From a virus, in the IMG/VR virus record IMGVR_UViG_3300029319_000243, positions 1 to 32,840 of that record: a stretch of DNA of 32,840 bases; one strand, 5' to 3'. Position numbers and translations under genes: made by a program. The notes beneath the pieces were generated by a model, which searched no databases, had not been told where the DNA came from, and saw only the letters and a list, made by a program, of their open reading frames with translations. This document shows positions 7,149-26,295 of the stretch, in pieces (positions within the stretch are counted from its first letter, which is position 1; every line of letters starts with the position of its first letter).

Positions 7149-7153
7149 GGTAT

Positions 7154-7836: not shown

Positions 7837-7850
7837 GTTAAGATCTTAAC
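7837..7850. repeat. GTTAA palindrome, copy 1
   Basis: GTTAAGATCTTAAC, a perfect 14-base palindrome, 17 bases after a TATAAT and 100 bases before the first early gene. First of eight related sites. Confidence 0.85.
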
Positions 7851-7880
7851 AAACTAATTGAAATTAAATTGAAATTTAAC

Positions 7881-7910
7881 TTGACACATTAATATGGTTT
7901 TTGATAGATT
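7881..7910 (+). promoter_or_regulatory. Candidate early promoter
   Basis: Perfect TTGACA (7881-7886), 18-base spacer, TAGATT (7905-7910). The start would be about 7917, 33 bases ahead of the first early ATG at 7950. The -10 box is weak, but the -35 is consensus and the position is right for the large plus-strand block. Confidence 0.55.
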
Positions 7911-7949
7911 CAATCAACGGCATAAGCCATAATTAAAAGGATAAAGAAA

Positions 7950-8540
7950 ATGAAAACAAATACAAAAATAACAATGAAGAAGCCAACCAAAAAAGACATT
8001 GCAATGGTGTTAAAAAAAGGTTGTGAACTAAGTAACGACATGAAAAAGATCACCGATGTGATCAAAGCTGACTTACACCACAGAGACAGCAACGGACAAA
8101 CACAGCTTACAAAAGCCTTTGATAACATAATGAAAGGCAAGGATGAAGAAGTGAAACAAAAATCCAAAGCTTTCATTCGTAAGCAATTTCAAACACTTGT
8201 AAAGGAAAAAACAACACAATTTGCAATCCTCGGTGATGACTCAGAGACAACAACAGTAACAGTCAAAAAAGTAAATAAGCCAATGTTGGAAGATGAGAAA
8301 ATCCTAGAGGATAACAATTTTACTGCCGATGATCTCGGATCATATAGAGCGGTGATAATCCGTAAGGAAGTTAATGATCTTGGATTGGCTCAAGAACTTT
8401 GTAAATGGATGAGATCAAAAAAGTCTGACGGTCTTTTCACAGGCACAAAGGATAATGCCGGAGATCTTAAAGCCTACGACCTAAACGGTTTAAAATTCGT
8501 AATCGACCAACTTGAAAAGGGCATCGAATTGCCAGTCTAA
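7950..8540 (+). CDS. First early protein, unknown function
   Basis: 196 residues, Lys-rich, with AAAAGGATAAAG as ribosome binding site. The N-terminal half is helical and charged (MKKPTKKDIAMVLKKGCELSNDMKKITDVIKADLHHRD). The C-terminal half is mixed (YRAVIIRKEVNDLGLAQELCKWMRSKKSDGLF). It stands alone between the main early promoter and a strong terminator, so it is likely the most abundant early product; that would fit a host-takeover factor or a DNA-binding protein. It is also the nearest gene to palindrome copy 1. No family recognised. Confidence 0.85.
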   Translation: MKTNTKITMKKPTKKDIAMVLKKGCELSNDMKKITDVIKADLHHRDSNGQTQLTKAFDNIMKGKDEEVKQKSKAFIRKQFQTLVKEKTTQFAILGDDSETTTVTVKKVNKPMLEDEKILEDNNFTADDLGSYRAVIIRKEVNDLGLAQELCKWMRSKKSDGLFTGTKDNAGDLKAYDLNGLKFVIDQLEKGIELPV

Positions 8541-8562
8541 AACCCACCGCACGCCACCCTTT

Positions 8563-8588
8563 AAGCCTGCTCATATAGCAGGCTTTTT
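8563..8588 (+). terminator. Intrinsic terminator T1
   Basis: AAGCCTGCT (8563-8571) and AGCAGGCTT (8577-8585) form a 9-bp stem with loop CATAT, followed by a T-run to 8588. An outer CACCC/GGGTG pairing can add to it. The next gene starts only 20 bases downstream, so it needs read-through. Confidence 0.9.
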
Positions 8589-8608
8589 GGGTGAAAATAG
8601 GAGATGAA

Positions 8609-9157
8609 ATGGATCAAACTTATAACAATGTAAAAAAGGTAGCTTATCAAAAGGACACTAATTGTTGCACTGTGATTAGTGCATCAATAGCTTTTGACAA
8701 AGACTACCAAGAAACCTATGATTTCTTTAGGGCAAATGGTAGATTAGACAATAGAGGACTATCACCCTATAGAACTGATAAGATGTTCAGAAAATTTGCA
8801 AAATTACATAATTACACAGTTGAATCTTATGTCCCTAGATACAGCTCAAGAAAATGGAATTGGATTAATTTACAAGGAAGTCACTTTAATAGTGAAAAAT
8901 CTTATAAATGCATAGCTATTACTAAAACAAAGACAGCCATCACCATAAACAATTTTAACGATTACTTACCATTAGGAACGTACATTCTAGGTGTTAGCGG
9001 TCACGTTTTAGCCGTTAAAAATGGTATTATACATGACTGGTCATCTAATGTTTATGGCAAGACAAGCCAGAGAAGGGTAAACAGGATTTACAAGATTGAA
9101 AGCAATAAAAAACAAGAAAACAAAAAAGAGTCAGACTTTTTAAAATATGTATATTAA
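8609..9157 (+). CDS. Predicted papain-like fold protein (putative cysteine peptidase)
   Basis: 182 residues. I choose the ATG at 8609 because AGGAG stands 5 bases ahead; a GTG at 8591 is in frame but overlaps the terminator tail. The N terminus has DTNCCTVISASIAF (Cys19/Cys20), then YDFFRANGRLDNRGL, and the C-terminal half has SGHVLAVKNGIIHDW. This Cys...GR...GRG...GHxxAVxxGxxxDW layout is one I associate with phage proteins of papain-like fold, giving a plausible Cys-His-Asp triad. Substrate unknown; a role against host proteins is inference. Together with ArdA it lies between the two sister terminators. Confidence 0.7.
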   Translation: MDQTYNNVKKVAYQKDTNCCTVISASIAFDKDYQETYDFFRANGRLDNRGLSPYRTDKMFRKFAKLHNYTVESYVPRYSSRKWNWINLQGSHFNSEKSYKCIAITKTKTAITINNFNDYLPLGTYILGVSGHVLAVKNGIIHDWSSNVYGKTSQRRVNRIYKIESNKKQENKKESDFLKYVY

Positions 9158-9160
9158 AAA

Positions 9161-9173
9161 GTTAAGGTTTAAC
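9161..9173. repeat. GTTAA palindrome, copy 2
   Basis: GTTAAGGTTTAAC, 12 bases before the ATG at 9186; the ribosome binding site AAAGGGAG follows directly. Confidence 0.85.
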
Positions 9174-9185
9174 AAAGGGAGCAAG

Positions 9186-9368
9186 ATGAAAAAACTAAAA
9201 CTAAAAATTGGCGATAAAGTAGAATTAAATCATGATCTTGATTATGCCAAAGTAATTATCAAGGGATTTGATGTAAATGAGCGTGGCGAGATTGCTTACT
9301 CTGACGAGGTTTGGTTTTATATGCATCAGATTATAAGTATAAATGGCAGAAGGGTTAAAAAATGGTAA
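9186..9368 (+). CDS. Small basic protein, unknown
   Basis: 60 residues (MKKLKLKIGDKVELNHDLDY...). I take the ATG at 9186 because AAGGGAG lies just upstream; a longer form from 9147 would run through the palindrome. The pattern of short beta-like strands (LKIGDKVELN, AKVIIKGFD, GEIAYSDEVWFY) suggests a small beta barrel. No family recognised. It overlaps the next start by a few bases. Confidence 0.65.
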   Translation: MKKLKLKIGDKVELNHDLDYAKVIIKGFDVNERGEIAYSDEVWFYMHQIISINGRRVKKW

Positions 9369-9622
9369 AATTTACAAAACAAAAAAAGGAAACAAAAACA
9401 ATGGATACGTTTAATGATCTCGTGCTCTTCTTAAATGAAGAAAACGAAACAATAAAAGAACAGTTACAGCACTTACAAAATGAGATTGACAGCATTACAC
9501 TCGACAATATCGAGGACAACAATGATCCAAAAACAATAAAAAACCAATTCAATATCATTCGTGATAACATCAAAGATATTAGAAACGGCAAAAAACCATA
9601 TCGAACAAAAGAGGAGAAATAA
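9362..9622 (+). CDS. Small coiled-coil protein, unknown
   Basis: 86 residues, acidic and helical (FLNEENETIKEQLQHLQNEIDSITLDNIED). The start at 9362 overlaps the preceding gene; an internal ATG at 9401 behind AAAGGA is an alternative that gives 73 residues. It stops 2 bases before the ardA start, so the two are likely translated together. Confidence 0.6.
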   Translation: MVKFTKQKKETKTMDTFNDLVLFLNEENETIKEQLQHLQNEIDSITLDNIEDNNDPKTIKNQFNIIRDNIKDIRNGKKPYRTKEEK

Positions 9623-9624
9623 AA

Positions 9625-10185
9625 ATGAAAATATACGTAGGAACATATCATAAATATAATATGGGTAGTTCAGAGGGTGAATGGATTGACTTAAACTCTT
9701 TAGAGTTTATATTTCCAACTGTTCACAATATTCACGGTGGCAAGGACTTTGAAAAAATATTTTACAATATTTGTCACCGCATTCATAGTGATGAAGGATC
9801 AAACCCAGAGTTTATGTTTCAAGACTGGGAAGGAATCCCTAAAGGTTTAATTTCAGAATCTGAAATTGATTCTAGGCTATTTGATATTTTGGATTTAGAC
9901 CTAAACGAAGAAGAGCAACAGTCATTTATAGATTATATGTCAAACCAAAATTTCCATTGGGATGATATTGAAGAAGCCTATGAAAGCTATCAAGATAATT
10001 ATCGGGGTAATTATTTTAATTTGCAAGAGTTTACCGATGAGCTTTTTGATGAGCGGGTTTTACCAGAAATGCCAGAACATATCTGGAATTTAATCTGCGG
10101 AAATGAAGTATATGAAGCATACTACCACAACGTCAAACATGATTATTATATATTAGATAATGGAGATGTTTTTCTTAACTGTTAA
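9625..10185 (+). CDS. ardA: ArdA-like antirestriction protein (DNA mimic)
   Basis: 186 residues, strongly acidic. It starts IYVGTYHKYNMGSSEGEWIDL, the ArdA signature (IYVA..YNxGxxxGxWIDL), continues with FQDWEGIPKGLISES (the D-x-E-G-x block), a YxSYQDNYRGNYFNLQEFTDELFDE block and the C-terminal YYHNVKHDYYILDNGDVFL that matches the ArdA end with a FxxxDY-type motif. ArdA proteins mimic bent B-DNA and block type I restriction-modification enzymes. GAGGAG precedes the ATG. A terminator follows 24 bases downstream. Length fits the family (about 165-190). Confidence 0.85.
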   Translation: MKIYVGTYHKYNMGSSEGEWIDLNSLEFIFPTVHNIHGGKDFEKIFYNICHRIHSDEGSNPEFMFQDWEGIPKGLISESEIDSRLFDILDLDLNEEEQQSFIDYMSNQNFHWDDIEEAYESYQDNYRGNYFNLQEFTDELFDERVLPEMPEHIWNLICGNEVYEAYYHNVKHDYYILDNGDVFLNC

Positions 10186-10208
10186 TTACTAACTAATACG
10201 CCCTATTG

Positions 10209-10233
10209 AGCCGACTCATTTAGTCGGCTTTTT
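10209..10233 (+). terminator. Intrinsic terminator T2
   Basis: AGCCGACT (10209-10216) and AGTCGGCT (10222-10229), loop CATTT, then a T-run. It shares flanks and loop style with T1 (both end CTTTTTGGGTGAAAA), with compensatory changes in the stem. Confidence 0.9.
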
Positions 10234-10260
10234 GGGTGAAAAAACTAATTTAATTAAATT
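10232..10260 (+). promoter_or_regulatory. Possible promoter after T2
   Basis: TTGGGT (10232-10237), 17-base spacer, TAAATT (10255-10260). The predicted start falls inside palindrome copy 3 (10261-10273), which would then act as an operator over the start site. Boxes are weak; AT-rich sequence makes chance likely. Confidence 0.3.
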
Positions 10261-10273
10261 GTTAAGGTTTAAC
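10261..10273. repeat. GTTAA palindrome, copy 3
   Basis: GTTAAGGTTTAAC inside TTGTTAAGGTTTAACAA (7-bp arms), followed by AAAAAGGAT and the ATG at 10289. Confidence 0.88.
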
Positions 10274-10288
10274 AAAAAAGGATAAAAA

Positions 10289-10573
10289 ATGAAACTAATT
10301 TTAGCAACTGAAATGCTTTTGAAAAAAAGCAAAAGAAGAAACCAAAACGAATTAAATGATTTAATGAGCATTATATTACGTGAAAATGATTGGTTTGATA
10401 ATGCAGAAAATGAGTTTTTATGGTTTGATGAATTTGATAAATGTCTAGTGATTGACGTTGATGAAAAGTCTTTTGAATTAAATGGACTACCATTGGAAAA
10501 CTGGCTAAATGAAAATACAGATTGTGATACAAACAGTGATAAAAGATTCAGAGTTTTTGGTTTAAATAGATAA
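10289..10573 (+). CDS. Acidic small protein, unknown
   Basis: 94 residues with strong AAAAAAGGAT upstream. The N terminus is basic (LLKKSKRRNQNELND); the rest is acidic and aromatic (FDNAENEFLWFDEFDKCLVIDVDEKSF). It follows T2 and palindrome copy 3, so it starts a new early subunit. The acidic, aromatic part is like DNA-mimic or inhibitor proteins, but I do not recognise a family. Confidence 0.7.
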   Translation: MKLILATEMLLKKSKRRNQNELNDLMSIILRENDWFDNAENEFLWFDEFDKCLVIDVDEKSFELNGLPLENWLNENTDCDTNSDKRFRVFGLNR

Positions 10574-10595
10574 TAATAATAATAAGAGGTTAATT

Positions 10596-10907
10596 ATGAA
10601 AAGTGCATTGAAAATAGTTCGTTCTATTCGTGGAGCATCGGAATATTTACCACAAAGGGCAACACATTATTTGGGTTGGATTTCTTTGGTCGCAATTCAA
10701 GAGCTGTTAAAGGCAAGAGTCAGAGCCAGTGGTAATCAAAACAACATATATATGATAAAAAAATTAGACGGCAACGCTGACAATTACAGAGAGCTAAACT
10801 TATTTTTAGAACAAAACCCACAGTTTCAAGAGATGGATAACCCGATGGACAACGATATATATATGCTTGTTTATGTTGCTAAGAGACTGTTGAAATATGG
10901 GAGATAA
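10596..10907 (+). CDS. Small protein, unknown
   Basis: 103 residues starting MKSALKIVRSIRGASEYLPQ, with AAGAGG upstream. Mostly helical, basic N-terminal half, no cysteine, no motif that I recognise. It overlaps the small membrane protein gene at 10897. Confidence 0.7.
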   Translation: MKSALKIVRSIRGASEYLPQRATHYLGWISLVAIQELLKARVRASGNQNNIYMIKKLDGNADNYRELNLFLEQNPQFQEMDNPMDNDIYMLVYVAKRLLKYGR

Positions 10908-11013
10908 TCAATTGAATTTATTTGAGAAAATATTAATTGTATCAATCATGGCATTTTTTACAACAGCTTTAATAATTGGTAGTGCATTGTTAATTTTTAT
11001 AATGCTGACTTGA
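10897..11013 (+). CDS. 38-residue single-pass membrane protein
   Basis: Starts MGDNQLNLFEKILIV and has one hydrophobic segment from about residue 12 to 37 (IVSIMAFFTTALIIGSALLIFIML), with almost no soluble part. The ATG overlaps the end of the preceding gene by 11 bases; the ribosome binding site is weak. Likely an early inner-membrane peptide; superinfection exclusion or a membrane anchor are possible, both inference. Confidence 0.6.
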   Translation: MGDNQLNLFEKILIVSIMAFFTTALIIGSALLIFIMLT

Positions 11014-11017
11014 AATT

Positions 11018-11031
11018 GTTAAGGTCTTAAC
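11018..11031. repeat. GTTAA palindrome, copy 4
   Basis: GTTAAGGTCTTAAC, 5 bases after the stop of the small membrane protein, followed by AAAAAAGGAG and the ATG at 11048. Confidence 0.88.
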
Positions 11032-11047
11032 AAAAAAGGAGTAAATA

Positions 11048-11155
11048 ATGGATCAATCAACATCAAATTGTAATTTTATTCGTTGGTTCAATGAAGACTA
11101 TGACCAATGGATAAAAAGATTAACAAAAGAACTAAAAAAGAAAATTAACAAATAA
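11048..11155 (+). CDS. 35-residue protein, unknown
   Basis: MDQSTSNCNFIRWFNEDYD followed by a basic helical tail (KRLTKELKKKINK). It has a very strong ribosome binding site (AAAAAAGGAG) behind palindrome copy 4, which is the main reason to believe in it. No family. Confidence 0.6.
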   Translation: MDQSTSNCNFIRWFNEDYDQWIKRLTKELKKKINK

Positions 11156-11165
11156 AAGGATAACA

Positions 11166-11423
11166 ATGGAAAAAATAGAAATAAAAGGAGATTGTCAATT
11201 TTTAAAAGACATTGAATCAAAGCCAAATTATAATGGCGTGCCACTGGGTGTTTATAATCTAATAACTACAAAGGGAGCGTTAAAACTTTGGGTAAGAGGG
11301 ATAAAACCCAATAGAAATTTCAAATTAAAAACTGTAAGATTTTATTTTGGGATAGACGGCAACGCAAAAACACTACTTTATAAATTAGAAACTATACTAA
11401 AATGCTTAGAGGGGGATAAATGA
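11166..11423 (+). CDS. Small protein, unknown
   Basis: 85 residues, MEKIEIKGDCQFLKDIES..., with AAAAGGATAAC upstream. Middle part looks beta-rich (YNLITTKGALKLWVRG, LKTVRFYFGIDG). Overlaps the next gene by ATGA, so the pair is coupled. No family recognised. Confidence 0.7.
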   Translation: MEKIEIKGDCQFLKDIESKPNYNGVPLGVYNLITTKGALKLWVRGIKPNRNFKLKTVRFYFGIDGNAKTLLYKLETILKCLEGDK

Positions 11424-11821
11424 AATTTAAAAAATTAAATTGGGATGATCATCAGTATTTAAAAAAATATGATTGCTACTCATACAGTCATCAAGCATAC
11501 GAGATTTTGAAAAATCATTACTATAATTATGAGTATGTAATTACTGAGGTTTGCTTAATTGATTGTTCAGTGTCTGTGTTTAATAATTGTACGGTTTGCC
11601 AAGCAAAGATTAAAAAAATGATAGATTCTGGCGAATGGAATCAAAAAGAGTTGGAGATCGTACTTGCTGACTGTGAGAGGTTCTTATATCAACGATATAA
11701 AAAAGCAGAAAAGGAAAAAACAAGAGTACCAGAGCAATTTGTACCGCATATATTTTCTTGCGGAACTCGAATAAATGGCTCAAGATTACATAAACCATTG
11801 TATTATAAATTAGATAATTAG
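11420..11821 (+). CDS. Cysteine-containing protein, unknown
   Basis: 133 residues with seven cysteines, including CLIDC (46-50) and CTVC (57-60), then a charged helix (ERFLYQRYKKAEKEKTR) and CGTRINGSRLHKPLYYKL at the end. The cysteines could hold a metal. Starts inside the ATGA overlap. Closes this early subunit; a promoter-like element follows. Confidence 0.7.
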   Translation: MKFKKLNWDDHQYLKKYDCYSYSHQAYEILKNHYYNYEYVITEVCLIDCSVSVFNNCTVCQAKIKKMIDSGEWNQKELEIVLADCERFLYQRYKKAEKEKTRVPEQFVPHIFSCGTRINGSRLHKPLYYKLDN

Positions 11822-11836
11822 CCAACAATTCATTAC

Positions 11837-11863
11837 TTGACTATAAATCTAAGGGGTTATAAT
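11837..11863 (+). promoter_or_regulatory. Candidate internal early promoter
   Basis: TTGACT (11837-11842) and a perfect TATAAT (11858-11863) with a short 15-base spacer; a TTGACT-N17-TAATTT reading is also possible. It stands in the 80-base gap before the gene at 11902. Confidence 0.5.
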
Positions 11864-11901
11864 TTACACACCACTAAACACAGAGTATAACTAGGAGAAG
11901 C

Positions 11902-12087
11902 ATGATGAAAATAAGAATGTATGACTTTATAAAAGTAAAAAATGGCTATCAAGTCGTTTGGTATTGGGGCGGTAGCTTTATTAAAACTGGATATAAACCG
12001 TATAATAATTATGTAAAAAATGGTTTTTTTAAAAATAGAAAAGATGCTGAAGATTTTGCTAATAACCTACAACTGGAGGAGGTGTAA
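11902..12087 (+). CDS. Small aromatic protein, unknown
   Basis: 61 residues (MMKIRMYDFIKVKNGYQVVWYWGG...), rich in Tyr, Trp and Phe. Two ATG codons in tandem (11902, 11905); AGGAG is 7 bases from the second, which may be the real start. The stop overlaps the next start (TAATG). Shape suggests a small beta-sheet domain with a helix at the end (KNRKDAEDFANNLQ). Confidence 0.65.
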   Translation: MMKIRMYDFIKVKNGYQVVWYWGGSFIKTGYKPYNNYVKNGFFKNRKDAEDFANNLQLEEV

Positions 12088-12359
12088 TGTTACCAGAAAT
12101 TATAATATGTTTTATATATGCGGTTATGTTTGGAACGATTGCAAACTATAAAATAAAGATAGAGATGCTAGAGCGTAAAGTTAATTTTTACAGATCAAAG
12201 GCTTTAAAAAATCGTATTCATTGGATTGAAATATATCAAGATTTAGTTGGTAAGCCGATGAAAGCAAGAAGTTATAAAGATGCTATGAGATTATTAAGCA
12301 TGGTACAATCAATTATGGATGGAGAACCAACAACTACTAAGTCTTTAAAAAATGATTGA
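12087..12359 (+). CDS. Membrane-anchored small protein, unknown
   Basis: 90 residues. Residues 3-20 (PEIIICFIYAVMFGTIA) form one membrane segment, followed by a charged helix (KIKIEMLERKVNFYRSKALK). GGAGG stands just upstream. It overlaps the metalloprotease gene by 8 bases. N-out or N-in orientation cannot be told. Confidence 0.65.
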   Translation: MLPEIIICFIYAVMFGTIANYKIKIEMLERKVNFYRSKALKNRIHWIEIYQDLVGKPMKARSYKDAMRLLSMVQSIMDGEPTTTKSLKND

Positions 12360-12705
12360 AGAGCGAAAAATCAACAGTATAATAAAGAGTTATAATTTAA
12401 ACTCGACTTTTATAATTGATCCTTATTTAATGACCGCTCAAGGTCGCTATAACGCAGATGATGATGTCATTATATTAAATCCAAGACAAAGCACCAGAGA
12501 GTTTATTTTATCTTTATTACATGAGATTTGCCACGCTTTAGATTCAAAAAGATTAGGTCATAAAAAGTTTATGAAGAAGTATAATCAAGCTGGGACAGTT
12601 GCGGTTAATTTTGGATTAGATTTTTACGACAGTAATAAATGGGAACAAAGGGCAGAGAGATTTGCTCAAAGGGAGATAAAAAAACATGAATCAAAGATCA
12701 TATAA
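12352..12705 (+). CDS. Predicted zinc metalloprotease (HExxH, ImmA/IrrE- or SprT-like size)
   Basis: 117 residues. LLHEICHALD gives the zinc motif H57-E58-xx-H61, and WEQRAERFAQREI gives a third ligand, probably Glu102, as in gluzincins such as ImmA/IrrE. The short length and the N-terminal beta part (FIIDP, DDVIILNP) fit that minimal fold. In phages such proteases may cleave regulators; here there is no lysogeny repressor to cut, so the target is open. It is embedded in an operon of small unknown genes and overlaps both neighbours. Confidence 0.75.
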   Translation: MIEERKINSIIKSYNLNSTFIIDPYLMTAQGRYNADDDVIILNPRQSTREFILSLLHEICHALDSKRLGHKKFMKKYNQAGTVAVNFGLDFYDSNKWEQRAERFAQREIKKHESKII

Positions 12706-12958
12706 ACAGAGAGACAACAGTAATTACGAAGCTATGTTGGCAGATTCTACAATTAGATATTGTACTGGGTGTAGAATGTGCTGGGAGATTGTCAAAGAAG
12801 TTTCTAATAGCTGTGGTCAAAAATCAGCAAATAAGTATGTAAAATTTTATAATCATATTCCAAGTTGGGGTAAGCAAAAATTAAAATGCTTTCACTGTTT
12901 AAAGATGAAGGTTGAAAAGTTTGTAAAATTATACTACACAAGAAAGCTAGTTAAATAA
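12686..12958 (+). CDS. Zinc finger-like protein, unknown
   Basis: 90 residues with CTGCRMC (26-32) and CFHC (69-72), a CxxC...CxxC pattern that suits a zinc ribbon, plus a basic C-terminal tail (KVEKFVKLYYTRKLVK). It overlaps the metalloprotease gene by 20 bases. The mix of zinc knuckle and positive charge suggests nucleic-acid binding. Palindrome copy 5 follows directly after the stop. Confidence 0.7.
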   Translation: MNQRSYKQRDNSNYEAMLADSTIRYCTGCRMCWEIVKEVSNSCGQKSANKYVKFYNHIPSWGKQKLKCFHCLKMKVEKFVKLYYTRKLVK

Positions 12959-12959
12959 A

Positions 12960-12973
12960 GTTAAGAACTTAAC
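12960..12973. repeat. GTTAA palindrome, copy 5
   Basis: GTTAAGAACTTAAC, 1 base after the upstream stop, followed by AAAAAAGGAG and the ATG at 12991. Confidence 0.88.
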
Positions 12974-12990
12974 AAAAAAGGAGAAGTAAC

Positions 12991-13332
12991 ATGAATAAAA
13001 ATGAAATAGAAAAGTTAAATGATCGTTGCGATGAGTTATTTGATTATCTAAGCGATGGTTACTCTGAGTGGAGAGATAAGCAAGGCAAGGAGCTGGCTTT
13101 GAAATTCGATAATAAAGATGACTTTTATCGAGAACTGGGAGAGGTCGTAACTATGTGCGTGCAACCAGTATTATTAAGGTTTCTAGGTTCGCACTTTGTT
13201 CATCATTTTGAAGTATGTGATGAGAGCTTAGACTGGATTTGCGATAAGGTAAAAGAGGAAATATCAGATGCGTACAGAGAGAAGATAGCAGAATGTTGTG
13301 ATGATGTGCCAGTCGCACAGGGTGTTGCATGA
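12991..13332 (+). CDS. Acidic helical protein, unknown
   Basis: 113 residues, acidic throughout (LNDRCDELFDYLSDGYSEWRDKQGKELAL...), with five cysteines and all-helix appearance. Strong ribosome binding site behind palindrome copy 5. Overlaps the next gene by 4 bases. No family. Confidence 0.7.
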   Translation: MNKNEIEKLNDRCDELFDYLSDGYSEWRDKQGKELALKFDNKDDFYRELGEVVTMCVQPVLLRFLGSHFVHHFEVCDESLDWICDKVKEEISDAYREKIAECCDDVPVAQGVA

Positions 13333-13589
13333 GTAGACATTATATTGATGGGGACACCTTTGTAAAGTATGAAAAGGAATCTGGAAAGCTTAGAATGTCT
13401 GGCGGATCATGGACTATAAACCTAGATAAAATAAAGCTTGAAAGTGTCAAGTATATTCGTTATATTACCGAGCGGTTCGTATATCAAATATCAAGCACTT
13501 ATGCAACAGACAAAGGATACATCAGAAATTTTCGAGGAGAAAATAAACTGGTTGTTCCTATTAGTAATTGGAAAGTAAAGGAGAGATGA
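13329..13589 (+). CDS. Small protein, unknown
   Basis: 86 residues starting MSRHYIDGDTFVKYEKESG, beta-rich look (GSWTINLDKIKLESVKYIRYI). Starts in a 4-base overlap and ends in an ATGA overlap with the next gene, so it is the middle of a coupled trio. No family. Confidence 0.65.
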   Translation: MSRHYIDGDTFVKYEKESGKLRMSGGSWTINLDKIKLESVKYIRYITERFVYQISSTYATDKGYIRNFRGENKLVVPISNWKVKER

Positions 13590-13804: not shown

Positions 13805-13819
13805 TGGAAATAAAAAAGG

Positions 13820-13903: not shown

Positions 13904-13916
13904 AAAAGGAGAGAAA

Positions 13917-14705
13917 ATGGAAAGCGGTTATTTTGGCATTCTACCAAAAGAAGTCAGACACGATAAAAACTTAAAAGCTAATGATAAAGTATTATTTTCT
14001 GAGATCATGGCTTGCCTTGAAAGTGACGGAGTTTGCACCAAGAAAAATATTTATTTCAGCAAGGTATTAAATCTCAGTAAAGTAACAATCTCAAAGTCTA
14101 TTACAACTTTGCGGAGACAAGGCTATTTATCTCATGTAGAGGAGTACGAAAAGGGTACTCTTAAATTGCTCAAGAGATACCTTACCCCCCATATAAACTT
14201 TAATGGGGTTGCATCGAATAAAGAAAATACCCATACTCAAGAATTTAATGGGGTAAGTTCAGAAAACGCTGTTACAGAGCAGTTAGAGATAGATACGCCA
14301 TTAAATAACGCACAAACATTATCTAAAGATAATAATATAAAGAAGATATATAAGGATGTAAATGGGTGTGAAATAAATAAAAAGATCAATGAGAAAGAGT
14401 TAAAATTCCTAGATAAATTCATCAACAAGGTGTATGACACCCAATCAACCAACTTTCCACAAATAATAAAACCAAACTGGAGATCAGACCAGAGGTTACG
14501 ATCTCGTTCAATCAACACAGTTTACGACATCATATCAAAAGATAAGTTCGATTACCAGATAGTTCATAATGTAATTATCTGGGCGTTACAAGATGAGTTC
14601 TGGTCAAAGCAGTGTATTCGGTTAGACTCGTTGAGAAATCAATCAGTAAATGGATTGTCGAAGTTCAAAAATATGTTCCTAGCTTATAGTGGTGGCATGA
14701 AATGA
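13917..14705 (+). CDS. Replisome organiser / replication initiation protein
   Basis: 262 residues. The N-terminal winged helix YFGILPKEVRHDKNLKANDKVLFSEIMA...NLSKVTISKSITTLRRQGYL (about 5-78) is the usual start of phage replication proteins of the O/DnaD-like kind. A low-complexity linker follows (110-150). The C-terminal part (NWRSDQRLRSRSINTVYDII...DEFWSKQCIRLDSLRNQSVNGLSKFKNMF) matches the domain that loads helicase. Its job would be to open the origin and bring in the primase-helicase encoded next (4-base overlap). The strong ribosome binding site lies at the foot of the structured leader. AAGGAGAGAAA precedes the ATG. Confidence 0.8.
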   Translation: MESGYFGILPKEVRHDKNLKANDKVLFSEIMACLESDGVCTKKNIYFSKVLNLSKVTISKSITTLRRQGYLSHVEEYEKGTLKLLKRYLTPHINFNGVASNKENTHTQEFNGVSSENAVTEQLEIDTPLNNAQTLSKDNNIKKIYKDVNGCEINKKINEKELKFLDKFINKVYDTQSTNFPQIIKPNWRSDQRLRSRSINTVYDIISKDKFDYQIVHNVIIWALQDEFWSKQCIRLDSLRNQSVNGLSKFKNMFLAYSGGMK

Positions 14706-16384
14706 ATTTTATTGACTACGGCATATCAGTTACTGGAATTTCTGGAGAAGTAAAAACTACTTGCCCAGAGTGTTCATCTACAAGAAGAAAGAAAAATGAA
14801 AGATGCCTTTCAGTTAATTTAGACAAGGAGATATGGAATTGTTTTCATTGTGGATGGAAAGGGTCATTGAAAAAAGTTAAGAACTTAACAAAAATTGAAG
14901 AGGTAAAAATCGTGAAACCAAAGCCACCAAAAGAAGGATTGCCCGAAAACATTTACCAATGGTTTGAGGATCGTGGCATAACTAGAGCAGTTGTTGATAG
15001 TGCGAAGATAGGATACGACAACAAATGGATACAATTCCCATTTATAAAAGACAATGAGGTCGTGAACATAAAATCAAGAAGTTCTGATAAAAAGTTTAGG
15101 CAGTCTAAAAATGCAGAAAAATGTTTTTATAGATTTGACCACATGAAGGGAATGGAAACCATTATAATTACAGAGGGTGAAATGGATGCACTGTCTCTTG
15201 TCCAAGCTGGATTTACAAATGTAGTATCTGTTCCAGACGGAGCAACCGCACCTAACTCCAAACCTACCGATAGAAAATTTAGTTACCTACTGTCAGCAGA
15301 GGAACACTTGATGAACGCAAAGCAAGTTATATTATGCACAGACTCTGATGGTGCTGGGCAACATCTTCGTGATGAGTTATCTCGCAGGATAGGAAGAGAG
15401 AAATGTTGTAGAGTTCAGTATCCAGAAGATTGCAAAGATATGAATGATGTTTTAGTTAAGTATGGAGAAGAGAAGATTGTTGATATTGTTAGCAGTGCGT
15501 ACCCCTACCCTATAGATGGAGTGGTTTTAATTGAGGATATAGAAGATGATGCTATTGAGTTATTTAACAAGCCAGAGCATAAAGGTTTGTCTACTGGGTG
15601 GTCAGACCTAGATGATGCTTATAGAGTAAGTCTTTCAGAGGTAACGGTAGTTACTGGTGTTCCTAATATGGGTAAATCAGAATGGATGGATGCTCTTATG
15701 ATAAACTTGATACAGCAATATGGTTGGAACTTCGCAGTATTCTCAGCAGAGAATTTTCCAGTAAAACATCACTTACTGAAATTGATTGGAAAGTTTGCTG
15801 GCAAGCCTTTTTGGGGTGATGATAAAATGGATGAATCAACAGCCAGAAGCTCCATGAAGCTTTTGAATAACCACATAAAGTTTATAGGCACTCAAGAGGA
15901 TTCCGTAACGATCGAGTCCATCATGGAGCAAGCAAAGGTCTTGAATTACAGATATGGACTGCAAGGTCTTATAATTGATCCGTGGAATACTGTAGAGCAT
16001 AAGTATGGGGATGGAGAAAATGAGACACTTTATGTATCAAGGGTATTGTCTCAAATAAGTGCTTTTGCTAAATTAAATGAGATGCACATTTGGGTGGTTG
16101 CACATCCAAGAAAAATGGAAAATGACTCAAATAGAAAGCCAGTTGTCCCATCACCCTACGATATATCTGGGTCGGCTAATTGGTTTAACAAGTGCGATAA
16201 TGCAATAACAATACATAGACACAAATCAGACTTTGAAGATTATGTTGGGGTTCATGTTCAGAAAATTAGATTTCAATACAAGAATGGAAAGCCAGACACA
16301 GCAAAGCTTGGTTATAATGTAGGGAGTGGAAATTATGTCAGCTACATCGAAGAATCCGAAACAGATTTATTTGGAGATGCTTAA
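14702..16384 (+). CDS. DNA primase-helicase (T7 gp4-like)
   Basis: 560 residues, full length for the fused family. Zinc ribbon C21, C24, C47, C50 (CPEC...CFHC). TOPRIM primase domain with ITEGEMDAL (Glu159) and CTDSDGAG (Asp214, Asp216). DnaB-like helicase domain with GLSTGWSDLDD, Walker A GVPNMGKSE (319-327), Walker B LIIDPWN (Asp426), and the later WVVAHP motif. It unwinds the fork and lays primers. No phage DNA polymerase is present, so host polymerase must be used. A GTTAA palindrome (copy 6) lies in the coding sequence between the zinc and TOPRIM domains, encoding about residues 59-63. Confidence 0.96.
   Translation: MNFIDYGISVTGISGEVKTTCPECSSTRRKKNERCLSVNLDKEIWNCFHCGWKGSLKKVKNLTKIEEVKIVKPKPPKEGLPENIYQWFEDRGITRAVVDSAKIGYDNKWIQFPFIKDNEVVNIKSRSSDKKFRQSKNAEKCFYRFDHMKGMETIIITEGEMDALSLVQAGFTNVVSVPDGATAPNSKPTDRKFSYLLSAEEHLMNAKQVILCTDSDGAGQHLRDELSRRIGREKCCRVQYPEDCKDMNDVLVKYGEEKIVDIVSSAYPYPIDGVVLIEDIEDDAIELFNKPEHKGLSTGWSDLDDAYRVSLSEVTVVTGVPNMGKSEWMDALMINLIQQYGWNFAVFSAENFPVKHHLLKLIGKFAGKPFWGDDKMDESTARSSMKLLNNHIKFIGTQEDSVTIESIMEQAKVLNYRYGLQGLIIDPWNTVEHKYGDGENETLYVSRVLSQISAFAKLNEMHIWVVAHPRKMENDSNRKPVVPSPYDISGSANWFNKCDNAITIHRHKSDFEDYVGVHVQKIRFQYKNGKPDTAKLGYNVGSGNYVSYIEESETDLFGDA
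14876..14889. repeat. GTTAA palindrome, copy 6 (inside the primase-helicase gene)
   Basis: GTTAAGAACTTAAC, identical to copy 5, in the linker between zinc and TOPRIM domains. A site kept within coding sequence argues that the DNA or RNA motif itself matters. Confidence 0.88.
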
Positions 16385-16547
16385 AGACCTTGATATTAAT
16401 GCAAATAAACCCTTAAATTTAAGGCGTATGGAAAAAAGATTACATGAAGAGTTTGATGCTGTTTGGGTTAAATATAATAATGGCAAAGCCACCATTGTAG
16501 AGTGGGAGAAGGCTTTAAATGATTGGTTAGAGGTAAACAAACTATGA
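16335..16547 (+). CDS. Small protein, unknown
   Basis: 70 residues (MSATSKNPKQIYLEMLKDLD...). I chose ATG 16335 as GGGAG stands 8 bases ahead; an in-frame GTG at 16326 is too near that site. It overlaps the end of the primase-helicase gene by 50 bases and the start of the phosphoesterase gene by ATGA. Helical, weakly basic (LNLRRMEKRLHEEFDAVWVKY). Probably a helper of the replication module. Confidence 0.65.
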   Translation: MSATSKNPKQIYLEMLKDLDINANKPLNLRRMEKRLHEEFDAVWVKYNNGKATIVEWEKALNDWLEVNKL

Positions 16548-17308
16548 AAGTAAAAAGATACATTGTGACACCAGATAAGCACTTTCCTATTGCAGACATG
16601 AAAGCTATTAGTGTTGTCTGTAAAGCAATAGAGATTATAAAACCAGATGGTTATATTGATCTAGGTGATGTTGGGGAGTGGGCATCTGTTAGTCACTGGC
16701 AATGGAAGAAGAAGAAGCGACCACCACTAGAATATCAAATTCCCTTTGTTGAGAAAGAAGTACAAGAGGTAAATAAAGGAATGGATATAATTGATGAGTC
16801 ACTTGACAAGGCTAATGTAAAAGAAAAACATTTTATAGAGGGTAACCATGAGGACTGGCTTAATAGATTTGTTGAAGAAAACCCATACCTTGCTAAAGAA
16901 TTTCTGGTTAGAAATGCTATTAAGCTGGGAGATAGGGGTTATAAATATCATAAACTCGGTAAGATGCTCAAGATTGGCAAACTTAATTTCTACCACGGAC
17001 ACCACTTCGCTGGTATTAGTCATACTCGCAACCATTTGCTTCGTCTTGGTGGCAATGTTATGTATGGTCATCATCACGACATTCAGCAATCATCCGTAAC
17101 TCATATCGATGGAGTAAAGTCAGCTTGGTCGATAGGTTGCTTGAAGGATATGTCGTCAGAGTCAAATGAGTGGCTGGGTAATAGACAGCACAATTGGCAA
17201 CACGCTTTTGCCATTGTTGATTTCTATCATTCTGGATTTTTCACCGTTCACTTGGTACAGATAGTGAATGGCAAAACATCCCTTTGGGGAGAGCTAATAA
17301 AAGGATAA
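16544..17308 (+). CDS. Calcineurin-like metallophosphoesterase
   Basis: 254 residues from ATG 16544 (GAGG upstream, ATGA overlap). The metal-binding motifs come in family order: D11-K-H13 (VTPDKHFP), GD42 (DLGDVGEW), GNHED (100-104), YHGHHF (His151, His153) and GHHHD (175-179). Such enzymes cut phosphodiester or phosphomonoester bonds with two metals; relatives are DNA repair nucleases of the SbcD/Mre11 type and phosphatases. Position in the replication operon favours action on DNA ends or a nucleotide signal. The substrate cannot be read from sequence. Confidence 0.88.
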   Translation: MKVKRYIVTPDKHFPIADMKAISVVCKAIEIIKPDGYIDLGDVGEWASVSHWQWKKKKRPPLEYQIPFVEKEVQEVNKGMDIIDESLDKANVKEKHFIEGNHEDWLNRFVEENPYLAKEFLVRNAIKLGDRGYKYHKLGKMLKIGKLNFYHGHHFAGISHTRNHLLRLGGNVMYGHHHDIQQSSVTHIDGVKSAWSIGCLKDMSSESNEWLGNRQHNWQHAFAIVDFYHSGFFTVHLVQIVNGKTSLWGELIKG

Positions 17309-17310
17309 TA

Positions 17311-17502
17311 ATGAAAGTAGCAAACGCACCAGACAAAAGACCTGCAATTGCTTACGACAGAATATCAGAGATAATGATGACTGTTAATGCTTTGAGGTAT
17401 TATAAAACAACACAACCAGAATCAGCCATACATCATATAGATTCCCTAATTGACGAATACGAAAAGGTACTTGAAATGTTCAAAGAGCCTGCAAATGGAT
17501 GA
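17311..17502 (+). CDS. Small protein, unknown
   Basis: 63 residues (MKVANAPDKRPAIAYDRISEIM...). AAAAGGATAAT directly precedes this ATG. Helical, ends LIDEYEKVLEMFKEPANG. It lies 2 bases after the phosphoesterase stop. No family. Confidence 0.65.
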   Translation: MKVANAPDKRPAIAYDRISEIMMTVNALRYYKTTQPESAIHHIDSLIDEYEKVLEMFKEPANG

Positions 17503-17740
17503 TAATTTATATTGGGCAACTGTATCTTGGGATGGATATGACGAGTACACTGATGGGTCTTTTTCATTCTATAGACCTACAATAGAAGATTTAGTGGATA
17601 GCGTTCAAGACTATCTTCTAAAATGGAAGTCTAGGGGTGCTTACCTAGAGTTGGCATCCAGAGAGTATCAAGGTGTATCTGTGGAGATCACAGAGTACAT
17701 ACAGTCAAAAATAAACAACAAAAAGGAGAAAACTGCATGA
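17495..17740 (+). CDS. Small acidic protein, unknown
   Basis: 81 residues from ATG 17495 (MDDNLYWATVSWDGYDEYTDGS...); 8-base overlap upstream and 4-base overlap (ATGA) with the SSB-like gene. Acidic and aromatic in the first half, helical later (VDSVQDYLLKWKSRG). No family. Confidence 0.6.
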   Translation: MDDNLYWATVSWDGYDEYTDGSFSFYRPTIEDLVDSVQDYLLKWKSRGAYLELASREYQGVSVEITEYIQSKINNKKEKTA

Positions 17741-18255
17741 GCAATAAAGACACTTTAGTATTTGAAAATAACACCGATACTATTGTAACCCTTATGTATG
17801 ATCAGCCTAAAACTGGCACTAATAACTACGGTGCTTGGTATTTATATGGCGTTCAGCACAATGGTGAAGATACAAGCTTTTTTGCAACTGAAACACTCCA
17901 TTCTAAGCTAAAGTATTACCAGAATGGAGATGTTTTAAACATACGAAAAGAGCAATCAGATGGCAAGTTCAAGTGGAACATTATCCCACAAGAAGGTACT
18001 AAGGCTAAGACAAGTGCCTCGGATATTGTTAAGAAGATAGACGATAGAACCCACGACATACACAAGCAAGTATGTTTGAAGCTTGCCGTGGATATGGTGG
18101 CAAAGAAAGACAAGCATGAGCTTCTCACTGGAACTGAGCTTACAGTTATAGAAGCAAACATGAAGCAATTACTTGTTGTGCTTGAGGGTACTGGTGAGTC
18201 TGGACTTGAAGAAGAAACAAGCTCACCAAAGACTAACGATAATCCACCATTCTAA
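17737..18255 (+). CDS. Single-stranded DNA-binding protein-like
   Basis: 172 residues. An N-terminal beta-rich part (TIVTLMYDQPKTG, GAWYLYGVQHNGEDTSFFATETLHSKLKYYQNGDVLNIRKE) fits an OB fold with aromatic residues for base stacking. A helical middle follows. The end is acidic and finishes NDNPPF, like the C-terminal tip by which SSB proteins recruit partners. Placed among primase-helicase, phosphoesterase and recombination genes, a role in coating single-stranded DNA is likely. The OB fold is inferred; no strict family signature. Confidence 0.65.
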   Translation: MSNKDTLVFENNTDTIVTLMYDQPKTGTNNYGAWYLYGVQHNGEDTSFFATETLHSKLKYYQNGDVLNIRKEQSDGKFKWNIIPQEGTKAKTSASDIVKKIDDRTHDIHKQVCLKLAVDMVAKKDKHELLTGTELTVIEANMKQLLVVLEGTGESGLEEETSSPKTNDNPPF

Positions 18256-18257
18256 AA

Positions 18258-18270
18258 GTTAAGTCTTAAC
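18258..18270. repeat. GTTAA palindrome, copy 7
   Basis: GTTAAGTCTTAAC, 2 bases after the SSB-like stop and only 2 bases before the ATG at 18273. No ribosome binding site fits between them. Confidence 0.85.
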
Positions 18271-18272
18271 AA

Positions 18273-18635
18273 ATGAAAAAGCTGTTATCCAAAAAACTTG
18301 ACAAAGCTTGGTCTGATAAAGTGAAAGAATACGGAATGTGTGAGGTATGTAGAAAAACTAAACCACTAAATGCCCATCACTTTTATTCACGATCAATTAG
18401 AGCAGTTAGGTGGGATATAGATAATGGCTTTTGTCTGTGCGTAGGATGTCATGTCTTTTCAAGCAAATTTTCAGCACACAAAACCCCTGCTGAATTTGTA
18501 GAATGGGCAATTGAAAAGCGTGGCATCCAGTGGTATGAAGATTTGAAAGAGAGAAAAAATAGCATAATCAAACTCAGAGATTCAGACTATCAAGATATTG
18601 TAGATAAAATTACTGCAAAAAAATTTGACATTTAG
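18273..18635 (+). CDS. NinG/Rap-like or HNH-type recombination nuclease
   Basis: 120 residues. MCEVCRKTKPLNAHHFYSRS (C23, C26, H35, H36) and DNGFCLCVGCHVFSS (N51, C56, C59, H60) form the zinc-bound HNH-like core as in lambda NinG (Rap), with the following helix (TPAEFVEWAIEKRGIQWYEDLKER). Rap helps lambda recombination by cutting branched DNA. With the NinB-like gene at 19938 this suggests a lambda nin-like recombination set. A plain HNH endonuclease remains possible. The start has no ribosome binding site, only palindrome copy 7. Confidence 0.75.
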   Translation: MKKLLSKKLDKAWSDKVKEYGMCEVCRKTKPLNAHHFYSRSIRAVRWDIDNGFCLCVGCHVFSSKFSAHKTPAEFVEWAIEKRGIQWYEDLKERKNSIIKLRDSDYQDIVDKITAKKFDI

Positions 18636-18642
18636 GATTATT

Positions 18643-18723
18643 ATGTGTAAATTAAAACAATGTTTAGTGTCGCAGATTTTATTGAAACTTAACCTTTATG
18701 CAACAGATGGCTTAATAAAGTAG
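18643..18723 (+). CDS. Possible 26-residue peptide
   Basis: MCKLKQCLVSQILLKLNLYATDGLIK, with AGGA 6 bases before the ATG. It runs into the left arm of the inverted repeat at 18695. It may be chance in an AT-rich gap. Confidence 0.25.
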   Translation: MCKLKQCLVSQILLKLNLYATDGLIK

Positions 18724-18819
18724 ATGTGCCGAATTAAAGGAAGATAAAAACTACATGAGAACATTAAATATGATTATAGTAGGCTTAATACCGTAGCATG
18801 GTTCTTACTGTTGCATAAA
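18695..18819 (+). ncRNA. Candidate structured RNA closed by a 12-bp inverted repeat
   Basis: TTTATGCAACAG (18695-18706) pairs perfectly with CTGTTGCATAAA (18808-18819), enclosing about 100 bases. Inside are two direct copies of GGCTTAATA (18709-18717, 18782-18790) and a 13-codon ORF (MRTLNMIIVGLIP) behind AAAGGAAG. No larger gene fits the 228-base gap. No tRNA fold found. It could be a small RNA, an element remnant or an operator pair. Confidence 0.45.
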
Positions 18820-18863
18820 AGTTATAAGTATTAAAAATTTTAACATTAAAAAAGGATAAAAAT

Positions 18864-19100
18864 ATGAATATTGAAAATATACAAAACAAAGTTACAAATA
18901 TATGGAACTACACAGAGCTAGAAATGTCTGACTTTTCATCTTCGGGTCTTAGAAAGCACCTATCGAAAATCAGCGATATAGTCAATGATGTTCTATCTGA
19001 TCTACAAGAATTAAAGACTTGCACTGTTTGTCAAACAGATGTATGTGAAGATTGCCTAGATGATATGGCACAAGAATTTGCCCCTAGTAAGGAAAGTTAA
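18864..19100 (+). CDS. Small protein with a cysteine cluster, unknown
   Basis: 78 residues, acidic, helical (LRKHLSKISDIVNDVLSDLQELK), with CTVCQTDVCEDC (53-64), four cysteines in 12 residues that could bind zinc. Strong AAAAAAGGATAA upstream. No family recognised. Confidence 0.7.
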   Translation: MNIENIQNKVTNIWNYTELEMSDFSSSGLRKHLSKISDIVNDVLSDLQELKTCTVCQTDVCEDCLDDMAQEFAPSKES

Positions 19101-19206
19101 AAATCAGTTGCTCGAAGAACTCAATAGAGGGAGAGAACTGGATAGGTCTTACTTGTGGTTGGCTACCAAGAGGGGCAAAGTTTTACAAAAGAGCAATGCA
19201 GGGTGA
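19060..19206 (+). CDS. Possible 48-residue basic protein
   Basis: MIWHKNLPLVRKVKNQLLEE... in the +1 frame, overlapping the previous gene by 41 bases and directly after a stop in its own frame (TAGATG). The sequence looks like a real amphipathic, basic protein (ELNRGRELDRSYLWLATKRGK). The ribosome binding site is weak and it ends inside the stem region at 19202, so both a gene and a structured RNA are possible. Confidence 0.4.
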   Translation: MIWHKNLPLVRKVKNQLLEELNRGRELDRSYLWLATKRGKVLQKSNAG

Positions 19207-19279
19207 GAACAGTAGATGACTTATTTTCATCTCCTTTCCTATCTTGATATACGTTTTCGACCTTCTCACCTAAGTTGCT
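19192..19279 (+). ncRNA. Candidate long imperfect hairpin
   Basis: AGCAA (19192-19196) with TTGCT (19275-19279), then GGTGAGAA (19202-19209) with TTCTCACC (19263-19270), then an inner hairpin AGATGA/TCATCT (19214-19219, 19227-19232). A rival pairing exists between GATAGG (about 19141) and CCTATC (about 19239). It ends 24 bases before the next small gene. Confidence 0.4.
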
Positions 19280-19302
19280 GATAGAGTAGGAGATTAATAA
19301 TA

Positions 19303-19434
19303 ATGTTAGGATATACAGTTATGGAAATAATAGAAACACAAGCATTTGACGTTTTAATTAACACTTTTTTCTGGATTATACTCTGGTCTTTTATGATCAT
19401 AAGATTAAATAGAATAGAGGACAAGATAAAGTGA
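19303..19434 (+). CDS. 43-residue single-pass membrane protein
   Basis: MLGYTVMEIIETQAFDVLI followed by one membrane segment (residues 17-33, VLINTFFWIILWSFMII) and a charged end (RLNRIEDKIK). TAGGAG lies upstream; a second ATG at residue 7 has AGGA at good spacing. Its TGA overlaps the next GTG start (GTGA). Early membrane peptide of unknown role. Confidence 0.6.
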   Translation: MLGYTVMEIIETQAFDVLINTFFWIILWSFMIIRLNRIEDKIK

Positions 19435-19748
19435 GAGTCTCTGATTTCTTCAAGTGGTCTGAGTCAATGCAAAAAGAAGAAAACAGATTGATGCAGGTTA
19501 AAGGCGAAGAATACACCGTTTCAGATGAAGATAAGTTCAAGAACTTTAAAAGCATTGCAGAGAGAATGTCCTTAAAACCAGAGCAAGTATGTCTTATATA
19601 TCTACTAAAGCACATGGATTCAATAAGAAACTATGTACTTACTGGTAGTGAAGTATCAGAAGAACCAATTACAAGCAGAATACAGGATGCACGGAACTAT
19701 TTACTATTGCTAGGCGGAATAATTGAAGAAAAAAGAAAGAAAGTATGA
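19431..19748 (+). CDS. Nmad1/DUF1599-like protein
   Basis: 105 residues, GTG start in a 4-base overlap. The pattern EYTVSDEDKFKNFKSIAERMSLKPEQVCLIYLLKHMDSIRNYV, then SRIQDARNYLLLLGGIIEE matches the nucleotide modification-associated domain 1 (K..Y...D...NF...A......V....KH..S, then E.I.DR..D..NYL.L). The family is tied to modified-nucleotide or nucleotide-pool metabolism in phages; exact reaction not known here. Confidence 0.7.
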   Translation: MRVSDFFKWSESMQKEENRLMQVKGEEYTVSDEDKFKNFKSIAERMSLKPEQVCLIYLLKHMDSIRNYVLTGSEVSEEPITSRIQDARNYLLLLGGIIEEKRKKV

Positions 19749-19962
19749 ATCAATACAATGGGTTATTGATGCACTATCGAACCCTGTACCCCCAAAAAAC
19801 TACAACGACAATCATAAAATAGATGCAATTAAGGCAGATGAAACTATTTCATGGTGTCCTAAGTGCGAAAGAAAATGGAATATTTTTGAAGGTCGTGTCT
19901 GGGGTTCTTACGATATGAGACTATGGAAAGAAAAAGTATGTCCAAACTGCGATTCCCAGTAA
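19723..19962 (+). CDS. Small zinc ribbon protein, TTG start
   Basis: 79 residues, overlapping the previous gene by 26 bases. The only start available in frame is TTG at 19723, behind GGCGGA. CPKC (45-48) and CPNC (73-76) make a zinc ribbon. It overlaps the NinB-like gene. No family beyond the ribbon. Confidence 0.6.
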   Translation: MKKKERKYESIQWVIDALSNPVPPKNYNDNHKIDAIKADETISWCPKCERKWNIFEGRVWGSYDMRLWKEKVCPNCDSQ

Positions 19963-20288
19963 AGATAAAAGATGGTAAAATGTCTTTGCTAGATAGAGAA
20001 GTATTTGACAATGCTATATCTAAGTTGCAAGGTCAGTATTATATGGAGTTAAAAGAAACTGGAGTACGCTCTGCACAGCAAAATAATTATTACTGGAATA
20101 TAGTTGATCTGCTGTCCGAGGAACTCGGCTATACGCAAAGAGAAATGCACCAAGTAATCAAAGATCATTTTAAAATACAGAGTACAAAAACTCTTACCCC
20201 AAAAGAATTTGGAATGTTCATAGAAAGATTAGTTAGATGGTGTGCTATAGATTTAAACATTGTTGTTCCAGACCCAAATAATTGTTAA
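19938..20288 (+). CDS. NinB-like recombination protein
   Basis: 116 residues from ATG 19938 (GGAAAG upstream); ATG 19923 gives 121. GVRSAQQNNYYWNIVDLLSEELGYTQREMHQVIKDHFKIQSTKTLTPKEFGMFIERLVRW fits the NinB (lambda Orf) family: RSxxQNxxYW, then GYTxxExHxxxKxxF. Lambda Orf binds single-stranded DNA with SSB and helps load RecA-type recombinases. This is the last plus-strand gene; its stop codon is inside palindrome copy 8. Confidence 0.72.
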   Translation: MSKLRFPVKIKDGKMSLLDREVFDNAISKLQGQYYMELKETGVRSAQQNNYYWNIVDLLSEELGYTQREMHQVIKDHFKIQSTKTLTPKEFGMFIERLVRWCAIDLNIVVPDPNNC

Positions 20289-20296
20289 ACCTTAAC
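20284..20296. repeat. GTTAA palindrome, copy 8 (reverse orientation)
   Basis: GTTAAACCTTAAC, the reverse complement of copies 2 and 3, inside AATTGTTAA-ACC-TTAACAATT (9-bp arms, 20280-20300). It holds the stop codons of both convergent genes (20286-20288 plus, 20301-20299 minus). Confidence 0.88.
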
Positions 20297-26293: not shown

Positions 26294-26295
26294 AA

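Follow-up and report, generated by a model that had tools for sequence, protein, structure and literature searches.

The window analysed here (IMG/VR virus record IMGVR_UViG_3300029319_000243, 32,840 bases) carries eight short palindromic dyads of the form GTTAA-N3/4-TTAAC, dispersed from the start of the early gene block to its junction with the late genes (Table 1). The dyads were noticed in an original prediction made from the letters of the sequence. Comparison with related genomes indicates that they are a real operator set common to a group of uncultivated phages, one that is absent from descriptions in the sources we searched, and it draws attention to the first early gene, here called e1, as the candidate for the gene of the protein that reads them.

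Table 1. Dyad sites, genes and a promoter-like sequence in the window
Feature	Position	Strand	Sequence	Remarks
Site 1	7837..7850		GTTAAGATCTTAAC	precedes the promoter-like sequence of e1; position shared by most relatives
Site 2	9161..9173		GTTAAGGTTTAAC	directly upstream of a Shine-Dalgarno sequence and ATG
Site 3	10261..10273		GTTAAGGTTTAAC	followed by AAAAAAGGA
Site 4	11018..11031		GTTAAGGTCTTAAC	followed by AAAAAAGGA
Site 5	12960..12973		GTTAAGAACTTAAC	followed by AAAAAAGGA; ahead of the gene at 12991; position shared by many relatives
Site 6	14876..14889			inside the primase/helicase gene, codons 59-63, linker
Site 7	18258..18270			between the SSB-like gene and NinG
Site 8	20284..20296		GTTAAACCTTAAC	junction of convergent early and late genes
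One-mismatch copy	22951..22964		GTTAAGTCCGTAAC	in a late (tail) gene
Promoter-like sequence for e1	7881..7910	+	TTGACA-N18-TAGATT	10 of 12 matches; 30 nt downstream of site 1 (distance 8-13 nt in most relatives)
e1	7950..8540	+		first early gene; 196 aa, basic (pI 9.1); candidate site-binding protein
e2 (PHROG 3754)	8591..9157	+		conserved neighbour of e1
Early block	7950-20288			replication-initiation protein, primase/helicase, metallophosphoesterase, SSB-like protein, NinG, NinB
Major head protein	1603-2508			late gene
Terminase large subunit	3101-4414			late gene
Portal	4411-5700			late gene
Terminase small subunit	6540-7148	leftward		late gene
Tail and lysis genes	20299-32711			late genes

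All eight dyads of the original prediction proved exact in coordinate and sequence, and their number is far above chance: 0.18 are expected from dinucleotide shuffles, and 0.18 under a second-order Markov model of the window (maximum 2 in 200). No dyad with another gap length was found in the window when gaps of 0 to 11 bases were examined. AA follows every copy, as had been stated, and leads into the same sequence in copies 3, 4 and 5; a single copy, at 14876, is in coding sequence; and the copy at 20284 overlaps the stop codon of NinB. The further statement that the dyads are confined to the early region is true of the perfect copies in the window, but a one-mismatch copy lies at 22951, which may be there by chance, and late-arm copies occur in relatives.

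Searches of cultured phages gave no near DNA relative of the window, a search with its primase likewise gave no close cultured phage, and no terminase relative was found in the genome collection. Used as a query, the window primase retrieved 80 related IMG/VR loci, about 25 of which carry several sites. The whole-genome set consists of 20 related contigs and the window (21 in total); 17 of these bear e1, the window included, and four do not. Sets of GTTAA sites are present in 16 of the 17 e1-bearing genomes, and the other one, G020, has variant sites.

GTTAA-N3-5-TTAAC occurs 99 times in the 17 e1-bearing genomes, against 3.2 expected, and once in the four e1-less relatives, against 0.9 expected. 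Among all orderings of the five arm letters, GTTAA is the commonest by far with its 99 sites; the next has 26, and the median is 7. Each genome holds 4-9 sites, the relatives also using a five-base gap, and 73 of 107 sites are outside open reading frames, as compared with 13% of random positions. Rather than being lost at matching places in close relatives, the sites recur there: ahead of the first early gene, close to e2, before the homologue of the gene at 12991, within the primase gene, close to the SSB, NinG and 19431 genes, and at the end of the early block. In some relatives a site falls inside the SSB or e2 gene. Additionally, 14 relatives have a late-arm copy between the homologues of the lysin gene and of the gene at 27947, which the window lacks. 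The late block is thus not free of sites across the group, and restriction to the early region is a feature of this window.

The SSB-like gene, at 17737-18255, encodes an unannotated protein that is probably a phage SSB, judging from the acidic, DDMPF-type C-terminal tail of its relatives; the linker of the protein contains a site in G008 and in G020-G023.

The dyad is better described as a pair of 6-bp half-sites, GTTAAR and YTTAAC, with a spacer of 1, 2 or 3 bp, and it often extends outward. Each genome has its own version, differing in the spacer (1-3 bp), in the sixth base (G or A) and in the outer base (A or T), or having TTTAAG/CTTAAA half-sites. Examples are AGTTAAACGTTTAACT in L007, TGTTAAAGTTTAACA in L022, GTTAAG-3-CTTAAC in L012 and L027, GTTAAAyrTCTAAC at five places in G020, and TTTTAAGGACTTAAAA, of the TTTAAG/CTTAAA type, at primase and intergenic places alike in L008 and L083. 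These changes of type hit all sites of a genome together, intergenic and coding. Pairs of sites from one genome have the same spacer length in 77% of cases (39% when shuffled) and the same outer base pair in 80% (40% when shuffled). The simplest cause of such concerted, genome-specific versions is a reader encoded by the same phage, and from these patterns it appears highly probable that the dyads are operators for a phage-encoded DNA-binding protein. The sites do often flank variable small early genes, as might linkers at module boundaries or small mobile repeats maintained by recombination, but the repeated unit is the short dyad alone and not its surroundings. The concerted changes, in the primase gene as elsewhere, and the association with e1 described below point to a phage-specific reader instead of a host DNA-binding protein; we regard linkers, mobile repeats and host sites, taken together, as very improbable explanations.

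The symmetry of the sites extends beyond the arms. Of the 53 sites with a four-base gap, 50 have complementary bases at the two ends of the centre (31 on average and at most 42 after shuffling), and 46 have complementary bases immediately flanking the arms (29 after shuffling). Of the 24 sites with a three-base gap, 21 have a symmetric centre (16.6 after shuffling, with 73 of 5,000 shuffles reaching 21). Because an RNA triloop could not use symmetric centres in the three-base-gap sites, these argue for a dyad at the level of DNA and not for an RNA hairpin. Many copies are directly upstream of a Shine-Dalgarno sequence, a position in which hairpins in mRNA leaders might act on translation or processing; however, the window sites fold weakly as RNA, six of the eight no better than shuffled sequence, the arm sequence is fixed within a genome and not compensated, the symmetry of the outer centre bases in the three-base-gap sites cannot come from pairing within a loop, and there are sites upstream of -35 boxes. 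The RNA hairpin suggested in the original prediction can therefore be given next to no probability, and its comparison with T4-type promoter stem-loops is let down by the same weak folds and by the lack of a consistent promoter at the sites within the operon.

Selection on the DNA can also be seen in the copy inside the primase gene, which is present in 21 of 25 loci with e1 and in none of 11 without it (p 2e-6). This dyad, with a gap of 4 or 5 bases, follows the GWKG motif, in a part of the gene that is little conserved. In most genomes it lies in frame 0, giving VKHLT, VKNLT or VKDLT, while in L028 it is in frame 2, giving KLSNLT; the third frame would encode a stop codon. Nucleotide-level conservation within coding sequence, in two frames and with different residues, means that the dyad is selected as DNA. 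A peptide-level reason for the coding copies (a VKxLT motif) was considered and rejected, as the majority of copies lie between genes and the coding ones use two frames.

Several lines of evidence connect the sites with e1. All 16 genomes with sets of GTTAA sites have the gene, as does G020, and none of the four site-poor genomes does; among the families shared by at least five of the 21 genomes, e1 is the sole one with this pattern. A search of IMG/VR with the e1 alignment alone found 44 loci, 37 of which hold sites by the patterns used; several of the others are short or contain near-copies. Among primase loci of at least 12 kb, two or more GTTAA sites are present in 20 of 24 with e1, versus 1 of 17 without. 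The four e1-bearing loci that fall below two sites are variant-motif loci, and the lone e1-less locus with sites, L018, is a fragment in which only 2,985 bases precede the primase gene, too few to show the e1 region.

The type of site also follows e1 in part. A tree built from 28 distinct e1 proteins requires four changes of the sixth base (8.8 when shuffled, p 0.001). For 21 of the same loci, this base changes seven times on the primase tree (p 0.57) and four times on the e1 tree (p 0.02); the outer base follows both trees. Moreover, all 11 e1 proteins with a WMRS-type C-terminus pair with G as the sixth base. The original prediction saw no known regulator gene; this is correct as far as known families go, but the comparison points to e1, a family without known relatives. 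On the strength of distribution and covariation, e1 is the best candidate for the protein reading the dyads, and we judge this assignment likely.

A number of observations weigh against it. Spacer length follows neither the e1 tree nor the primase tree, and the variation of the spacer between 1 and 3 bp within one genome (1-2 in the window, 1-3 in G013) is unusual for a rigid dimer. Sites of the G type are found in six genomes whose e1 is not of the W type, the signal on the e1 tree is weak when the 17 genomes are taken alone (p 0.05-0.10), and a genome-wide correlation of distances in all genes with site type was uninformative and did not single e1 out. The relatives are not independent, hence Fisher values overstate the association. 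No recognisable DNA-binding domain, PDB relative or significant PDB fold match was found for e1. Finally, the distribution of the neighbouring gene e2 is near that of e1, with e2 in 14 of 16 site-bearing genomes and in none of the other four.

This last point raises the question of whether the reader might be a phage protein other than e1, such as e2 or the product of a fast-evolving gene missed as one family. The e2 tree fits the sixth base about equally well, on few genomes. However, G005 and G009 have full site sets and no e2, no further family approaches the distribution of e1, and e2 resembles a papain-like enzyme, so that we consider a different reader doubtful. In e2, C, H and D-W positions are invariant, and its fold matches, although weak (E > 0.1), include several to papain-like proteases; on this basis it is a probable papain-like cysteine protein and possibly a cysteine enzyme that acts on e1. 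Its C-terminal tail carries one site in several relatives. The small Cys4 protein at 12686 was also considered as reader and dropped, since the site-less G002 and G007 carry its gene too.

The e1 proteins are mostly basic (pI 7.7-9.8), with invariant K, Q and T positions. An AlphaFold2 model of e1 (pLDDT 87) has helices at 14-43, 52-62, 66-85 and 87-99, followed by two strands and two helices, and three of the helices with the two strands could form a winged-helix arrangement. We found no match to e1 in the collections of cultured phages and plasmids, and Pfam, PHROGs, PADLOC and PDB sequences gave nothing noteworthy. The fold search matched one viral model, A0A516M4L5 (34% identity), and the lack of a significant match in the PDB does not in itself make the fold new.

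If e1 is the reader, the position of the sites relative to promoters bears on what it does. In most relatives a dyad ends 7-13 nt upstream of a TTGnnn-N16-18-TAnnnT sequence, both before e1 and before the homologue of the gene at 27947. The dyad centre is then at about -50 to -56 of the early and late promoter-like sequences; the window, G011 and G024 have other distances. Genomes without e1 retain the late promoter-like sequence, and in one of them, G007, half a site is left beside it (GTTAAACATTACC), as if e1 and the sites had been lost together. Upstream of site 1, several genomes have in common a stretch resembling CATATATAAGG, which could be a second -10. Copies within the operon are often directly before a ribosome-binding site, and no promoter is evident downstream of them. 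Site 1 itself belongs to a long region without evident genes (7150-7900), which lies between the leftward terminase small subunit gene and e1 and near which the GC skew changes.

The combination of promoter-linked sites with copies that are inside the operon, free of promoters and mostly outside open reading frames fits a protein that regulates its own promoter and impedes elongation along the early operon. We propose that e1 would be made early in infection and would bind the dyads as a dimer, recognising GTTAAR half-sites with a 1-3 bp spacer (13-15 bp altogether). As it accumulates, it would occupy site 1 at its own promoter, resulting in autoregulation, and the copies along the early operon: those upstream of ribosome-binding sites, the one in the primase gene and, in some relatives, those in the SSB or e2 gene. 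Bound e1 would damp or stop early transcription by blocking initiation and elongation, and in most relatives it would also control the late-arm promoter. DNA binding, its dimeric form and the repressive effect are all features that we infer. Our preferred reading is that the dyads are operators read most likely by e1, an autoregulated global regulator that is probably a repressor of, or roadblock in, the early genes, and we put the probability of this reading at roughly 0.6; that the net effect of e1 is mainly repressive is, taken separately, a tentative suggestion.

The main rival to repression or a roadblock is activation near -52. A site that is upstream of the -35 box, and not over it, suits activation as well as repression, and the centring of the dyad at both promoter-like sequences in most relatives is what might be expected if e1 or another phage protein recruited the host RNA polymerase to early and late promoters, with the sites in the operon being secondary or serving for looping. 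However, the distance from site to promoter varies (1-13 nt, and 30 in the window) with no fixed helical phase, the promoter-like boxes look reasonable even in the absence of a site, the late one being kept where e1 is missing, and most early sites have no promoter downstream. Thus, we consider an activator unlikely. Some sites are far from promoters, some are inside the primase and SSB genes, and as a whole they are spread along the genome, which could also reflect bridging, condensation, partition or replication control of the DNA by e1 or another protein. Such an organising role appears less likely still, given the strong bias towards intergenic places by gene starts and the two promoter-like sequences; we noticed no par genes in the families found, although no search aimed at them was made.

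Among known systems, the mycobacteriophage stoperators named in the original prediction are the best of its leads, and literature searches for similar phage palindromes gave nothing closer. The stoperators of cluster A mycobacteriophages (L5, Bxb1) are asymmetric 13-bp sites, present in 20-30 copies per genome and oriented with transcription; they are read by the helix-turn-helix (HTH) immunity repressor of these temperate phages, which blocks elongation, and some are at the early promoter while most are not at promoters, with a motif that differs between phages and follows the binding protein (PMC6550527). The sites described here are similarly dispersed along operons, mostly intergenic and mostly not at promoters, and their motif differs between genomes; its sixth base, though not spacer length, follows the tree of e1, the candidate reader. 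They differ from stoperators in being symmetric and not oriented with transcription, in numbering 4-9 per genome, and in being present at two promoter-like sequences and inside genes. No integrase or cI-type (HTH_3) repressor was found above the cut-off in the 21 genomes, and the gene of the candidate reader is the first early gene and not a lysogeny gene. The likeness would accordingly extend at most to a stoperator-like way of working, and we do not claim membership.

Other comparisons cover part of the pattern. The Ogr protein of P2 and Delta of P4 act at TGT-N12-ACA sites, which are found at late promoters only and are centred at about -55, and Ogr is a small Cys4 zinc protein. The dyads come near this position, at about -50 to -56, at two promoter-like sequences in most relatives, but most of them are not at promoters, and the e1 sequences show no Cys4 motif. 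Operators of lambda Cro are over promoters and not along the operon; an early gene beside its own operator and the early shut-off proposed here recall that system, while the spread of sites along the operon does not, and e1 is unrelated to Cro by every search made. T4-type elements join an early promoter to an RNA stem-loop. They resemble the dyads in being intergenic and beside variable early genes, whereas the dyads appear to act at the DNA level and are free of promoters at most early places.

No Phage_integrase and no HTH_3 repressor scored above the cut-off in the 21 genomes, in which contigs may be incomplete and other HTH families were not searched; weak HTH_3 matches were in frames of 210-218 aa, which we take as terminase small subunits. 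A role in lysogeny is therefore without support. Should the phages prove strictly lytic, their dispersed, phage-specific operators would have to serve something besides lysogeny, for instance early shut-off or competition with related phages in a shared host cell. A broader scenario, which we offer as speculation and would not ourselves bet on, is that e1 represents a new family of DNA-binding regulators, unlike known folds, that reads dyads with a 1-3 bp spacer; phages without detectable lysogeny genes would then have immunity-like dispersed operators, partly within essential replication genes and diverging in specificity from phage to phage, and the papain-like e2 might inactivate e1. The sites outline a regulon common to a group of uncultivated phages without a cultured close relative, its probable regulator can be named from sequence alone, and its operator sets switch specificity together, even in coding sequence.

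Other elements were noticed in these genomes. A second dispersed intergenic element consists of a hairpin such as GCCGACTCATATAGTCGGC followed by TTTTTGGGTG, with possible outer CACCC/GGGTG pairing. It is present in the window at 8543-8597 and 10188-10243 and also in G001, G005, G009, G012 and G013, often between e1 and e2; Rfam gave no match anywhere in the window, this element included. A tRNA-like minihelix, made up of an acceptor stem and a T arm (GGTTCGATTCC), is found between early genes in G006 (near 12802), G025 (near 11400, between e1 and e2) and G024 (near 18101), with CCA in G006 and G025; ARAGORN called no tRNA at the G006 and G025 loci. The early block of the window also encodes an HExxH metalloprotease-like protein (PHROG 87) at 12352-12705, of which some relatives, with or without sites, have a homologue. 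Lastly, on the minus strand at 28880-28960 there is a conserved promoter-like sequence, TTGyAT-N17-TAAnTT, followed after only about 9 nt by a start codon, which suggests a nearly leaderless late transcript.

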